A stretch of 41,052 bases of DNA from Elusimicrobiaceae bacterium (GTDB taxonomy: Bacteria > Elusimicrobiota > Elusimicrobia > Elusimicrobiales > Elusimicrobiaceae): NCBI GenBank assembly GCA_017468055.1, contig JAFUJU010000037.1, positions 1 to 41,052 on the forward strand, given 5' to 3'. The notes under the pieces were generated by a model, which saw nothing but the letters and a program-made list of their open reading frames with translations, did no database searches and was not told the origin of the DNA. Shown here one piece after another: positions 1,877-6,360 of the stretch (positions are counted from its first letter, which is position 1; the number at the start of each line of letters is the position of its first letter). A program made the position numbers and the translations under genes.

Positions 1877-2995
1877 CTAAGAGCCTGTGACAAACTTAAA
1901 GACTTTTTCGACAAGATTATACTTAGCCTCAGACTTGGAACAATCTAAAGTCAGTTTCGTCCAATATGTTCCTCCTGAGCAAGTTTGTCCATAATTTTGC
2001 TTGTAATAGTAAAAGGAGGCAGTCATCGGACTTGTGGATCTGTTAAAACCACACCCCATATCTCCATAAATTTCATCACAGGCACTGCCTGCGGAAGCGG
2101 AAGTCCCTTTTGAATTTACATAGTTTGCAAAATTAACATTTCCTTGATCGGTTGGATTGGTCGGTTGTTGATAACTATAATAGCAATTCTGACTGCTTCC
2201 CCAAGAACCGGTCGTAACCCCGCTAGTGCCGCAACCGATGGAATAATAGTCCCTGCACGAGCCTTTGGCCAACATACTGCTGGTACAACCGCCCGTATAT
2301 GAACTAAGAGTTCCGTTGCAGGTGTCCGCGCTGGAGTACGCGCTAGGATCAGAGGTAGAGAACTCTCTGCTAGAGGTAAGAGTTTGGGTACATCCGCCTG
2401 TTCCAGTGCTCATCTTACAACCTAAAACTTTGTAGACATTTCCCGTTACGCTGTCCGTTTGCTCTATCCATTCAAATTCGGTACAATCCATATCCGCCCC
2501 TAAAGGAATCGTATTTCCACCTAATGTAAAATTGCTTTTTGGCTCTTTTGAGGCGCCATTGTCCACATCAGCACTTCCGCCGGCCACTTTTATGGTATGG
2601 TAAGGTAAGTCCAACGTGAGGCCATGCACTTGTAAGGCCGCACTTCCGACCTCTATACTTCCGTCCACTACAGCATCTCTGTGCGTGCGTATTTCACCGC
2701 CAATCATATAAACGGACGGAGTAAATACTTGCGCCGCCGGTAAATCTACCCCACTCACATAGGCACAACCTATGTCCAGCGGACCGGAACCAATATGATC
2801 GATCGTTACTTCGCTAGCGGATTGGACCGTTACAAATTGACTCTGAGCATTACCGACCGTGCTTAATGTATCTGATACTTTCAAATGTTCATAACGACCT
2901 AAGCGCGAAGGATTAAAACTTACGCTGTCAATGACTTCTGCCGTCGCCACTCCAACAAGCAGACTCACAAAAACAAGTAAAAAGAATTTCTTCAT
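1877..2995 (-). CDS. Secreted cysteine-rich protein of unknown function
   Basis: A 372-aa protein with a clear signal peptide (MKKFFLLVFVSLLVGVATA, cleavage probably before EV). The mature N-terminal half (about 20-160) is rich in Val, Ser, Gly and Asp, with no recognisable domain, and may be beta-rich. The C-terminal half (about 165-360) holds most of the roughly 17 cysteines among Ser, Thr, Gly and Tyr, which suggests several disulphides in an extracytoplasmic protein. A strong Shine-Dalgarno sequence, TAGGAGGT, sits 8 nt before the ATG. The gene is monocistronic with its own terminator. No family is recognised. A surface or pilus-associated role is possible given the many pilins in the window, but this is speculation. 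Confidence 0.8.
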   Translation of the reverse strand: MKKFFLLVFVSLLVGVATAEVIDSVSFNPSRLGRYEHLKVSDTLSTVGNAQSQFVTVQSASEVTIDHIGSGPLDIGCAYVSGVDLPAAQVFTPSVYMIGGEIRTHRDAVVDGSIEVGSAALQVHGLTLDLPYHTIKVAGGSADVDNGASKEPKSNFTLGGNTIPLGADMDCTEFEWIEQTDSVTGNVYKVLGCKMSTGTGGCTQTLTSSREFSTSDPSAYSSADTCNGTLSSYTGGCTSSMLAKGSCRDYYSIGCGTSGVTTGSWGSSQNCYYSYQQPTNPTDQGNVNFANYVNSKGTSASAGSACDEIYGDMGCGFNRSTSPMTASFYYYKQNYGQTCSGGTYWTKLTLDCSKSEAKYNLVEKVFKFVTGS

Positions 2996-3104
2996 GAATT
3001 ATACCTCCTAAGGTACCCATAATTGCACTTTATCAAAAAGGAAATAGAGAGTCAAGGGAAAAATTCATATTTTTTGGTCCAAAAATCTAATCATTTTTTT
3101 TGCT

Positions 3105-3133
3105 TGCCAAAAAATAAATGGGTGTGCTATCTT
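3105..3133 (+). promoter_or_regulatory. Sigma70-type promoter of the hydG leader
   Basis: TTGCCA at 3105-3110, a 17-nt spacer, and TATCTT at 3128-3133 place the transcription start near 3140. That is a few bases before the closing helix of the structured leader. The spacing and -35 match are good and the -10 is fair. Confidence 0.6.
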
Positions 3134-3140
3134 GTATATA

Positions 3141-3256
3141 CAGAAGCACCTTATGCACGCAGGACCTCATCCCTGCGCGTAAGACGTCGGCCTGGTCCGA
3201 CAGGTCCGTTCCGGCGGTGGAAAGGGTTCTTCCGCCGGAGCGGTTTAAAAAGTGCT
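3141..3256 (+). promoter_or_regulatory. Candidate structured RNA leader upstream of hydG
   Basis: The GC-rich 116-nt segment in an AT-rich gap folds by eye into a closed multi-helix element. AGCAC (3145-3149) pairs with GTGCT (3252-3256) and encloses three hairpins. Hairpin one has CTTA and CGCAGG (3150-3163) pairing with CCTGCG and TAAG (3172-3183). Hairpin two is GTCGG (3186-3190) with CCGAC (3197-3201). Hairpin three is CCGGCGG (3211-3217) with CCGCCGG (3232-3238), extended internally by GGAA/TTCT. The loop ACCT (3164-3167) of hairpin one can pair with AGGT (3202-3205), a pseudoknot. There is no long open frame with a ribosome site and no tRNA T-arm. Class unknown; a riboswitch-like or protein-binding leader is inferred. 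Confidence 0.5.
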
Positions 3257-3261
3257 ATGAT
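3256..3261 (+). promoter_or_regulatory. Extended -10 directly before hydG, leaderless geometry
   Basis: TGC-TATGAT is followed by ATAAGT and then the ATG at 3268. There is no Shine-Dalgarno sequence at this start. The hexamer overlaps the 3' strand of the leader's closing helix. It may therefore be a second, leaderless promoter for hydG. Confidence 0.45.
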
Positions 3262-3267
3262 ATAAGT

Positions 3268-4650
3268 ATGATTATTGATGATGAGAAACTGCAACGAACC
3301 TTGGAAAATGCAAAGTCCCACACGGACACCGAGGTGACGGAAATTTTAACCAAAGCCCGCGAGTTAAAAGGGCTCAGCCTGCAAGAGGCAGCCGTCCTTT
3401 TGAATATTACCGACGAAAAACTGCTGCAAGAGCTGTTCCATGCCGCTAAGTATGTAAAAGAAGAAATTTACGGAAACCGCATTGTATTGTTTGCACCGCT
3501 GTATATTTCCAATATCTGTACCAATGAATGCGTGTATTGCGCTTTCCGCAAGAGTAACACCTCTTTAAAACGTCACGCCAGCTCCCGCGAAGAAATTACC
3601 CAAGAGGTCACCGCCCTTTTACAACAGGGCCACAAGCGTATTTTGATGGTGGCGGGAGAAGCCTACCCCGGCGGTGGTTTGCAATATGTATATGACAGCA
3701 TCAAAGCCATTTATGACACCCGCTGGAACGGACAAAATATACGCCGCGTCAATGTAAACATTGCGCCCTTGGTGCAAGAAGAATTTGAAGAACTCAAAAA
3801 ATGCAACATCGGCACGTATCAGTTGTTCCAAGAAACGTATCATAAACAAACCTATGAACAATTGCACTTAGAAGGGGCTAAAAAAGATTACCAGTTTCGC
3901 CTAGATGCCATGGACCGCGCCTTAAAGGCCGGAATTAATGATGTGGGCATTGGCCCTTTGCTGGGGTTGTATGATTATAAGTATGAAATTTTGGCCACCT
4001 TGGAGCATGCCTTTTACTTGGACCAAACCTACGGCGTCGGCCCGCATACGATTTCTATTCCACGCATTGAACCGGCGGAAGGATCTGACTATAGCTTGCA
4101 CCCCCCCTACCAGTTAACGGATATGGATTTCAAGAAAGTAGTGGCCGTCTTGCGCTTGGCCGTACCTTATACCGGTATCATCTTAAGCACGCGCGAAAGT
4201 GCACAAATGCGCAATGAATGCATGGAGTTGGGTGTCTCGCAAATTTCGGCCGCCAGCCGCGTCAATCCCGGTGGGTATTCCTACGATAAAGACAACGGCA
4301 GCCAGTTTACACTGACCGACGAACGCACCTTGGCCGAAGTGATTGATGCTTTGGCAGATGCCAAACACATGCCGTCTTTCTGCACCGGTTGCTACCGCTT
4401 GGGCCGCGTGGGGAAAGATTTCATGGATTTGGCCAAACCGGGGCTGATTAAAAAACATTGTTTGCCTAATGCCATGTTCACCTTTGCCGAATATTTGGAA
4501 GACTTTGCCCCCGAAGCCTTAAAAACCAAAGGTTATGCGCTGATTGAAAGCACCACCCAAGAAAACTTTGAAGAGGGCGGCGCAATCCGAAAAATGATAG
4601 AAACCAACTTGGCTAATATCAAAAACGGAAAACGGGATTTGTACTTCTAA
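3268..4650 (+). CDS. hydG: [FeFe]-hydrogenase maturase HydG (radical SAM tyrosine lyase)
   Basis: HydG cleaves tyrosine to p-cresol and dehydroglycine and builds the Fe(CO)(CN) synthon for the H-cluster of [FeFe] hydrogenases. The 460-aa product has the N-terminal radical-SAM motif CX3CX2C at Cys84, Cys88 and Cys91 (CTNECVYC). It also has the family-specific C-terminal motif CX2CX22C at Cys372, Cys375 and Cys398, which binds the second cluster. The length matches HydG. The frame stays open upstream to 3118, but those 50 codons run through the structured leader and do not resemble HydG; MIIDDEKL at 3268 is the natural start. hydE, hydF and hydrogenase subunits are not in the window. A terminator follows, so the gene is transcribed alone. 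Confidence 0.95.
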   Translation: MIIDDEKLQRTLENAKSHTDTEVTEILTKARELKGLSLQEAAVLLNITDEKLLQELFHAAKYVKEEIYGNRIVLFAPLYISNICTNECVYCAFRKSNTSLKRHASSREEITQEVTALLQQGHKRILMVAGEAYPGGGLQYVYDSIKAIYDTRWNGQNIRRVNVNIAPLVQEEFEELKKCNIGTYQLFQETYHKQTYEQLHLEGAKKDYQFRLDAMDRALKAGINDVGIGPLLGLYDYKYEILATLEHAFYLDQTYGVGPHTISIPRIEPAEGSDYSLHPPYQLTDMDFKKVVAVLRLAVPYTGIILSTRESAQMRNECMELGVSQISAASRVNPGGYSYDKDNGSQFTLTDERTLAEVIDALADAKHMPSFCTGCYRLGRVGKDFMDLAKPGLIKKHCLPNAMFTFAEYLEDFAPEALKTKGYALIESTTQENFEEGGAIRKMIETNLANIKNGKRDLYF

Positions 4651-4743: not shown

Positions 4744-4852
4744 GACGGATTTTTATTTTTGTACTTTTTGGCGGGCTTCGGCGCGCCAACCCTACAGGGC
4801 CCTATGGTATCGGTCTTCCGACAGCCGGGTGGTACAGAGGTAAAAATCCGTT
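4744..4852 (+). promoter_or_regulatory. Candidate structured RNA leader upstream of the first yfcC gene
   Basis: A perfect 11-bp closing helix pairs ACGGATTTTTA (4745-4755) with TAAAAATCCGT (4841-4851). A second helix, TTGTAC (4759-4764) with GTACAG (4832-4837, one G-T pair), lies inside it. Next comes a hairpin TTGGCG/CGCCAA (4768-4789) whose inner GC pairs are capped by UUCG. Then comes a hairpin TCGG-TCTT-CCGA (4810-4821). ACCC (4789-4792) can pair with GGGT (4827-4830). A -10-like TAAAAT at 4729-4734 puts the start near 4741, right at the closing helix. The real ribosome site (GGAGGAAG) lies about 25 nt beyond the element. Class not recognised. Confidence 0.5.
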
Positions 4853-4893: not shown

Positions 4894-6360
4894 ATGAAAC
4901 TGTTGAAGTTCAAGTTGCCCCAATTCAACACCCTCAGCATTATTTTTGCCATTATCTTATTGGTAACGGCAATGACGTGGCTTGTACCCAGCGGCGCATA
5001 TGACCGCGTACTAAGCGACGGTAGAGAAGTGGTCGTTCCCGGTACGTATCATGCCGTAGAGGCTAACCCACAAGGTGTTTTTGACGTTTTAAAAGCCCCC
5101 ATTACCGGCTTTGAAAACACCGCACTTGTAATTGCCTTTTTGCTTATCATCGGCGGTGTATTGGCTGTGGTGGAAAAAACGGGTGCCATTACCGCAGGTA
5201 TCAAAGAGGCCAGCCGCTTTTTTGGCAAAAAACCTCAGTTTAAATTTCTTTTTATTCCGATGGGTGTCATTATCTTTTCTTTGTGCGGGGCCACATTCGG
5301 CATGTGCGAAGAGACCTTAATTTTTATTCCCGTTTTAATCCCGCTTGCCTTATCGTTAGGGTATGATTCTGCCCTCGGCACTGCCATCGCATTTGTAGGA
5401 GCAGGAGTTGGCTTTGCCACAGCTTTTACCAATCCCTTCACCGTAGGCATTGCCCAAGGTATTGCGCAAGTGCCGTTGTACTCCGGCTTGGGGTATCGCC
5501 TGATTATTTGGGCTATTTGCACCTGTGTACTGATTGGATTTTTGATGATTTACGCGCGTAAAATTACCAAGGATCCTACTAAAAGCTTAACCTATGAGCA
5601 CGACCAAGCCAAACGCCAAGAACTGGGAATGAATACCGACAGTCAAACCATTACCACCCGTCAAAAGCTGGTGCTGATTGCGTTTACGTTGGGTATGATT
5701 ACATTGGTGTGCGGAGTACTTAAACCGCAACTGTGCGACTTTATCAAAGGTTTCACCGGTGTGGATTTGATGGCGTTACTTAACCTTGAAAACAGCGGTT
5801 GGTATATTACAGAAATTGCTGCTCTTTTCTTAGGCATAGGCTTTGTCTCAGCCATCTTGGGTGGACTAAACATGAGCCAATTTACGGACAGCTTTTTTGA
5901 CGGCGTACGTGGTATGGCTTCTATTGCCATTACTTTATGTTTTGCCCAAGCGATTGTACTTATTGCCCAAAACGGCCAAATCTTAGATACGCTTTTAAAC
6001 TTCATGTCTAAAGGCATCTCCAAATTACACCCCATTTGTGCTTCTTGGGCGGCTATGCTTTTGCAAACCGTGATTGATTTCTTTATTCCGTCCGGATCCA
6101 GCAAAGCGGTGCTGACTATGCCCATTTTGGCCCCCTTGGCAGACCTCATCGGCATTACGCGCCAAACTATGGTGCTCTCTTTTCAACTGGGAGGCAGCTG
6201 GCTGAATATGATTTTCCCTACAGACCCTGTCACCCTTGCCGCTATCGGATTTGCCAATATTGCTTTTTCTAAATGGCTGAAATGGCTTGCTCCGCTGCTG
6301 ATAGTGATGTATTTGCTTTCTTTTGCGGCCCTCATTCCGCCGTATTTTATGAATTGGTAA
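4894..6360 (+). CDS. YfcC-family membrane transporter (first of a tandem pair)
   Basis: A 488-aa integral membrane protein with about 11-13 hydrophobic segments. It has the N-terminal family pattern VPSGAYDR near residue 32, followed by GTYHAVEANPQG and the glycine-rich TM block FLLIIGGVLAVVEKTGAI. YfcC proteins belong to the basic amino-acid antiporter (ArcD/DcuC-like) group, so amino-acid or dicarboxylate exchange at the inner membrane is likely; the substrate is unknown. The start at 4894 is set by GGAGGAAG 11 nt upstream. The open frame extending back to 4759 lies in the structured leader. It is co-oriented with a paralogue 79 nt downstream. Confidence 0.85.
   Translation: MKLLKFKLPQFNTLSIIFAIILLVTAMTWLVPSGAYDRVLSDGREVVVPGTYHAVEANPQGVFDVLKAPITGFENTALVIAFLLIIGGVLAVVEKTGAITAGIKEASRFFGKKPQFKFLFIPMGVIIFSLCGATFGMCEETLIFIPVLIPLALSLGYDSALGTAIAFVGAGVGFATAFTNPFTVGIAQGIAQVPLYSGLGYRLIIWAICTCVLIGFLMIYARKITKDPTKSLTYEHDQAKRQELGMNTDSQTITTRQKLVLIAFTLGMITLVCGVLKPQLCDFIKGFTGVDLMALLNLENSGWYITEIAALFLGIGFVSAILGGLNMSQFTDSFFDGVRGMASIAITLCFAQAIVLIAQNGQILDTLLNFMSKGISKLHPICASWAAMLLQTVIDFFIPSGSSKAVLTMPILAPLADLIGITRQTMVLSFQLGGSWLNMIFPTDPVTLAAIGFANIAFSKWLKWLAPLLIVMYLLSFAALIPPYFMNW

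Follow-up and report, generated by a model that had tools for sequence, protein, structure and literature searches.

A probable clade-specific structured RNA with a predicted promoter of its own upstream of hydG in Elusimicrobiaceae

The locus described here lies in a window of 41,052 nucleotides (the whole stretch of DNA that was analysed), which is contig C27 of the incomplete 1.3-Mb genome of an Elusimicrobiaceae bacterium (G000). In this window hydG occupies positions 3268..4650 of the forward strand and encodes the radical SAM maturase of the [FeFe] hydrogenase H-cluster (510.9 bits to TIGR03955, whose cut-off is 312). The gene upstream is divergent (1877-2995, reverse strand); its product, 372 aa long and rich in Cys and Ser, is a secreted protein with the signal peptide MKKFFLLVFVSLLVGVATA. 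This gene has its own promoter (TTGACT-17-TAAAGT) and is matched in position in G072 and G023 by a gene with a similar start. No tRNA or tmRNA was found within the window. hydG is present in 59 of 66 genomes of the genus, and we read 57 of the hydG upstream regions. Four of these, from closely related uncultured bacteria of the gut, carry the RNA that is the subject of this work (G000, G072, G023 and G025) and 53 do not; the hydG proteins of G072, G023 and G025 are the three closest to that of the window, at 93-95% identity.

The gap between the two genes holds a three-hairpin structured RNA at 3140..3250 on the forward strand, its start being predicted from a promoter motif. A preliminary description of this DNA had pictured a GC-rich element in an AT-rich gap, in agreement with a GC content of 66% over 3150-3243 vs 30% in the gap upstream. 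The segment 3143-3256 folds at -57.7 kcal/mol, compared with a mean of -38.7 kcal/mol for dinucleotide shuffles (z = -5.15), and none of 200 shuffles folded as well. Covariance-model matches in the four genomes range from E = 1e-17 to 1e-31. The three internal hairpins of the preliminary description are borne out: all are conserved in four related species, with compensatory changes. In a four-sequence alignment 97.2% of cells are paired under the three-hairpin model and 6 pairs are changed on both sides, which are small counts; none of 500 shuffles matched these values, and the pairing was destroyed when partners were slid against each other. The conservation partly reflects ancestry, as only four related sequences are available. 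We consider it probable that the conserved RNA is real and distinct from the hydG promoter.

Hairpin 1 (3155..3180) is formed by the stem CGCAGG/CCTGCG (3158-3163/3172-3177) and a lower stem extension, with 100% of cells paired and 3 pairs changed on both sides. While this stem varies among the carriers, its 8-nt apical loop (ACCTCATC, 3164..3171) is retained in the form [A/C]CCUCAUC, with 7 of its 8 positions identical in the four genomes, and is predicted to be unpaired with a probability of 0.97 or more. The loop is the best-conserved unpaired stretch of the RNA and the only one that is strongly conserved; the junction bases vary. Hairpin 2 (3186..3201) is GUCGG/CCGAC (3186-3190/3197-3201) or a near variant in three copies, and G025 substitutes another hairpin. 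A single-sequence fold favours GCCUG/CAGGU at this place, but GTCGG/CCGAC is the better reading because its pairing is kept in G072 and G023. Hairpin 3 (3206..3243) pairs CCGTTCCGGCGG with CCGCCGGAGCGG (3206-3217/3232-3243) in 100% of cells and includes two compensatory pairs in G072, where CCGUUCCGGCGG became CCGAUGCGGCGG and the opposite strand changed to match. It is the most stable part of the RNA. The 5′ part differs in length by about 14 nt among the carriers.

Two further elements of the preliminary description, a closing helix AGCAC/GTGCT and a kissing interaction between ACCT and AGGT, did not hold up in the relatives. The closing helix is intact only in G000, with 64.7% of cells paired and zero compensatory changes in the alignment, and the kissing pair is complementary in G000 only; the proposed test of covariation upstream of hydG thus supports the hairpins in the four carriers and neither of the other two elements, and "pseudoknotted" and "closed" are features of one sequence. 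The GTGCT strand does overlap the TATGAT promoter, as had been noted, and it is present there because it forms the TG motif of the extended -10 element of hydG. The case illustrates how an RNA in its own right can look like a gene's riboswitch when a single sequence folds strongly and a promoter is close by.

The distribution of the RNA is narrow. A covariance model built from three copies found the fourth, in G072, and no other convincing match among the 66 genus genomes; a second model convincingly found the same four copies only among 149 genomes of the order, and its weaker matches at hydG (E 0.002-0.008) span the shared promoter flank that was built into the model. Candidate copies elsewhere in the genome and order were weak matches (E >= 0.003) that lacked the hairpin 1 loop or lay on the strand opposite to the element, and we rejected them. 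Remnants were sought with the full model in 30 sources, most of them regions upstream of other hydG genes, and the best E was 0.3. The conserved pattern of hairpin 3 was not found in viral contigs, and among genome contigs it occurred only in the record of G025 and in one unrelated Opitutae record. As the RNA occurs in the four carriers with the closest hydG proteins and nowhere else convincingly, we regard it as clade-specific. No Rfam family matched at its gathering score in the window, and none overlapped 3141-3256 even at E <= 10, in line with the preliminary description, which could match it to no consensus core of the riboswitch classes that it named; a literature search on small RNA in Elusimicrobi* found no title on the subject.

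That description had proposed a riboswitch-like sensor of hydrogenase maturation, responding to SAM, tyrosine, iron or redox state. A covarying structured RNA upstream of hydG that belongs to no known family speaks for such a sensor, and this much of the proposal stands. The sensing role fits poorly, however: 53 of the 57 regions read upstream of hydG in the genus lack the RNA, whereas a riboswitch would keep a conserved aptamer core across most orthologous genes, and what is conserved here is one apical loop in 4 of 57 regions. The varying junction bases, the replaced hairpin 2 of G025, the unequal length of the 5′ part and the poor conservation of the closing helix and kissing pair all argue against a riboswitch, as does the position of the RNA upstream of the main hydG promoter, although P1 transcripts that read through, which the lack of a terminator-like site would allow, would have it in their 5′ UTR. 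Compared with the riboswitches among the Rfam cis-regulatory families, the RNA is alike in being structured and preceding a metabolic gene, and differs in that it matches no Rfam family, lacks a conserved core in its junctions, is narrowly distributed and sits upstream of the main promoter. We therefore rate a ligand-sensing riboswitch as very unlikely. A base-pairing RNA fits better than an aptamer, since the junctions vary and one apical loop is invariant.

A much better riboswitch candidate lies downstream of hydG. A leader at 4756-4850 (forward strand) precedes an ORF for a yfcC-type antiporter (4894-6360), and its model, R3, found it at E <= 1e-16 in 17 genomes of the genus, with one further, diverged copy at 2.7e-4, in 18 of 18 cases immediately upstream of yfcC homologues. 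Its core, ACCCUACAGGGCCCUAUGGUAUC...AGCCGGGUGGUACAGAGGU, is almost invariant and surrounds two variable, covarying hairpins (99.4% paired, both sides changed in 8 pairs and 0 of 500 shuffles as good, in an alignment fitted to the model). The remainder of the phylum sample lacks it, and no Rfam family matched; a GGGUGGUAC stretch looks T-box-like by eye only. These features single it out as a strong riboswitch candidate of an undescribed kind. A lysine riboswitch controls a yfcC gene in Clostridioides difficile (PMC11477304), and for this reason basic amino acids would be our first guess at the ligand.

Two promoters are predicted between the divergent gene and hydG. The first, P1 (3104..3133, forward strand, from a consensus scan), has a -35 element TTGCCA at 3104-3109, an 18-nt spacer with a TG motif and a -10 element TATCTT at 3128-3133. 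It predicts transcription from near 3140, the start given in the preliminary description. In all four carriers the same place holds TTGC(C/T)A and TATCTT (TAATCT in G025) at 17-18 nt spacing, with an AT-rich stretch, ATCTAA(T/C)C.TTTTTTT, above it and 121-128 nt from the predicted start to the hydG ATG. P1 is thus conserved as a motif and would give the RNA the promoter of its own that a base-pairing RNA should have.

The second promoter, P2, is the extended -10 promoter of hydG (TGCTATGAT, 3253..3261, forward strand); it lies downstream of the RNA, with its end 6 nt from the ATG. Across the 57 hydG upstream regions, with or without the RNA, AAAAGTGnTATnATATAnnT or close variants stand directly before the ATG and end 6-7 nt upstream of it, and no Shine-Dalgarno sequence was found at the hydG start in any of the 57. 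From a -10 element so placed, established promoter geometry has the transcript begin at or beside the ATG. The hydG message is, by this motif and its conservation in 57 genomes, most likely leaderless. The arrangement recalls the leaderless mRNAs from extended -10 promoters (reviewed in PMC9031893), in that hydG has TGnTATnAT ending 6-7 nt before its ATG, genus-wide, and no Shine-Dalgarno sequence; it differs in that a four-genome clade adds a second promoter and a structured RNA upstream, and in that the hydG start is predicted from the motif.

Similar arrangements were seen at other genes. In the four carriers, a -10-like TATAAT or TATGGTAAAAT also stands shortly before the ATG of hydF and of the second hydA, and neither gene has a Shine-Dalgarno sequence; the hydrogenase genes of the genus may therefore commonly have leaderless messages. 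In G007, G014, G021, G024, G029, G034 and others, a divergent gene upstream of hydG, which by eye resembles smpB, has a mirror-image TTTGCTATnATATnnnATG at its start, a promoter that again abuts the start codon.

The 3′ end of the RNA bears on three readings. A terminator scan found no terminator-like site between hairpin 3 and hydG: hairpin 3 is followed by 2-3 T at most, in the sequences UUUAAAAAG, UUAAAAAG or UCAAAAAG, and so does not look like a typical intrinsic terminator. In the absence of a terminator or defined 3′ end, we do not class the RNA as a proven small RNA. It could instead be an alternative structured 5′ leader, with P1 reading through into hydG and the hairpins tuning stability or translation, or binding a protein, with no ligand or loop pairing involved. 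The missing terminator would suit such a leader, as would the nearly constant distance from hairpin 3 to the hydG start in the four carriers and the fact that the RNA adjoins hydG in every one of them (4 of 66 genus genomes). Yet P2 would already yield a complete leaderless message, the long transcript would have no Shine-Dalgarno sequence at the hydG ATG, and synteny within a clade of this size says little for a role in cis; we find this reading possible but rather unlikely. Alternatively, the hairpins may act as an insulator or inefficient terminator that shields the hydG promoter from upstream transcription, or may have no regulatory importance. In favour of this account, hairpin 3, the most stable part, abuts P2, and several congeners (e.g., G008, G010 and G068) have unrelated hairpins just before P2. 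We nevertheless think it improbable: with the upstream gene divergent, only P1 is left to terminate, hairpin 3 has no T-run, and neither the invariant hairpin 1 loop nor the conserved -35 and -10 elements of P1 would be needed.

We favour a clade-specific base-pairing RNA, either a small RNA or a leader transcribed from P1, and give this reading a probability of roughly 0.4. Small RNAs that pair through a C/U-rich seed in an apical loop are an established kind in bacteria. The present RNA is like them in being short and hairpin-rich, with a promoter of its own and an invariant pyrimidine-rich loop on a covarying stem; it differs in having no standard terminator, in its absence from Rfam and in being known from sequence alone. 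A conserved unpaired seed, such as a base-pairing RNA needs, is present in the four genomes as the predicted unpaired hairpin 1 loop. That the RNA acts through pairing of this loop is a tentative proposal that we hold at somewhat less than even odds.

Among possible targets, the start of hydG itself is the best candidate. GATGAG, at 3280..3285 on the forward strand (codons 5-6), is complementary to CUCAUC of the loop and is found in 4 of 4 carriers compared with 1 of 53 non-carriers, which makes it a hypothetical target; a conserved 6-nt complement near the hydG start is expected for 1.5% of random 8-mers (a chance of about 0.015). This pairing was framed as a hypothesis after the data had been seen, and the four carriers are one clade. 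Synonymous constraint on the first hydG codons is seen throughout the genus, also where the RNA is lacking (0.65 in those relatives vs 0.82 here), and this weakens the argument. The complementarity is accordingly suggestive only, and hydG as a target of the RNA is doubtful. GATGAG was absent from the starts of hydF and of the two hydA genes in G000, G072, G023 and G025 (hydE was excluded, its longest frame having no clear start codon); with no common target at hydF or hydA, we rejected a shared hydrogenase regulon. A leader peptide (ATGCACGCAGGACCTCATCCCTGCGCGTAA in the window) was also rejected: no start codon and no end of the reading frame is common to the four carriers, and the invariance of the loop includes third codon positions.

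Taken together, the locus most likely encodes a structured RNA, specific to the clade and not described before, with a predicted promoter of its own, acting as a base-pairing small RNA or as an alternative P1 leader. The basis for this is what can be read from the genomes: a covarying structure, its distribution, the motifs of the two promoters, an invariant loop and its complementarity. The RNA would be transcribed from the sigma70-type promoter P1, starting at about 3140, and, rather than being a normal hydG leader, it was probably added together with P1 in front of an ancestral leaderless promoter, P2. Its three hairpins would fold independently, with hairpin 1 displaying the C/U-rich CCUCAUC as a likely seed for RNA-RNA pairing, whether in trans as a small RNA or in cis within transcripts that read through from P1. 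Were the GAUGAG of codons 5-6 the target, pairing would hinder leaderless initiation at hydG. This most specific form of the proposal, a newly evolved RNA of the clade that pairs through its hairpin 1 loop with codons 5-6 of the adjoining leaderless hydG, we judge unlikely as a whole; if true, it would mean cis-encoded RNA control of [FeFe]-hydrogenase maturation where there is no Shine-Dalgarno site to mask. Provided that it is transcribed, the RNA would represent a small RNA not previously described in Elusimicrobiaceae, as well as a candidate for RNA control of a leaderless hydrogenase-maturase message.
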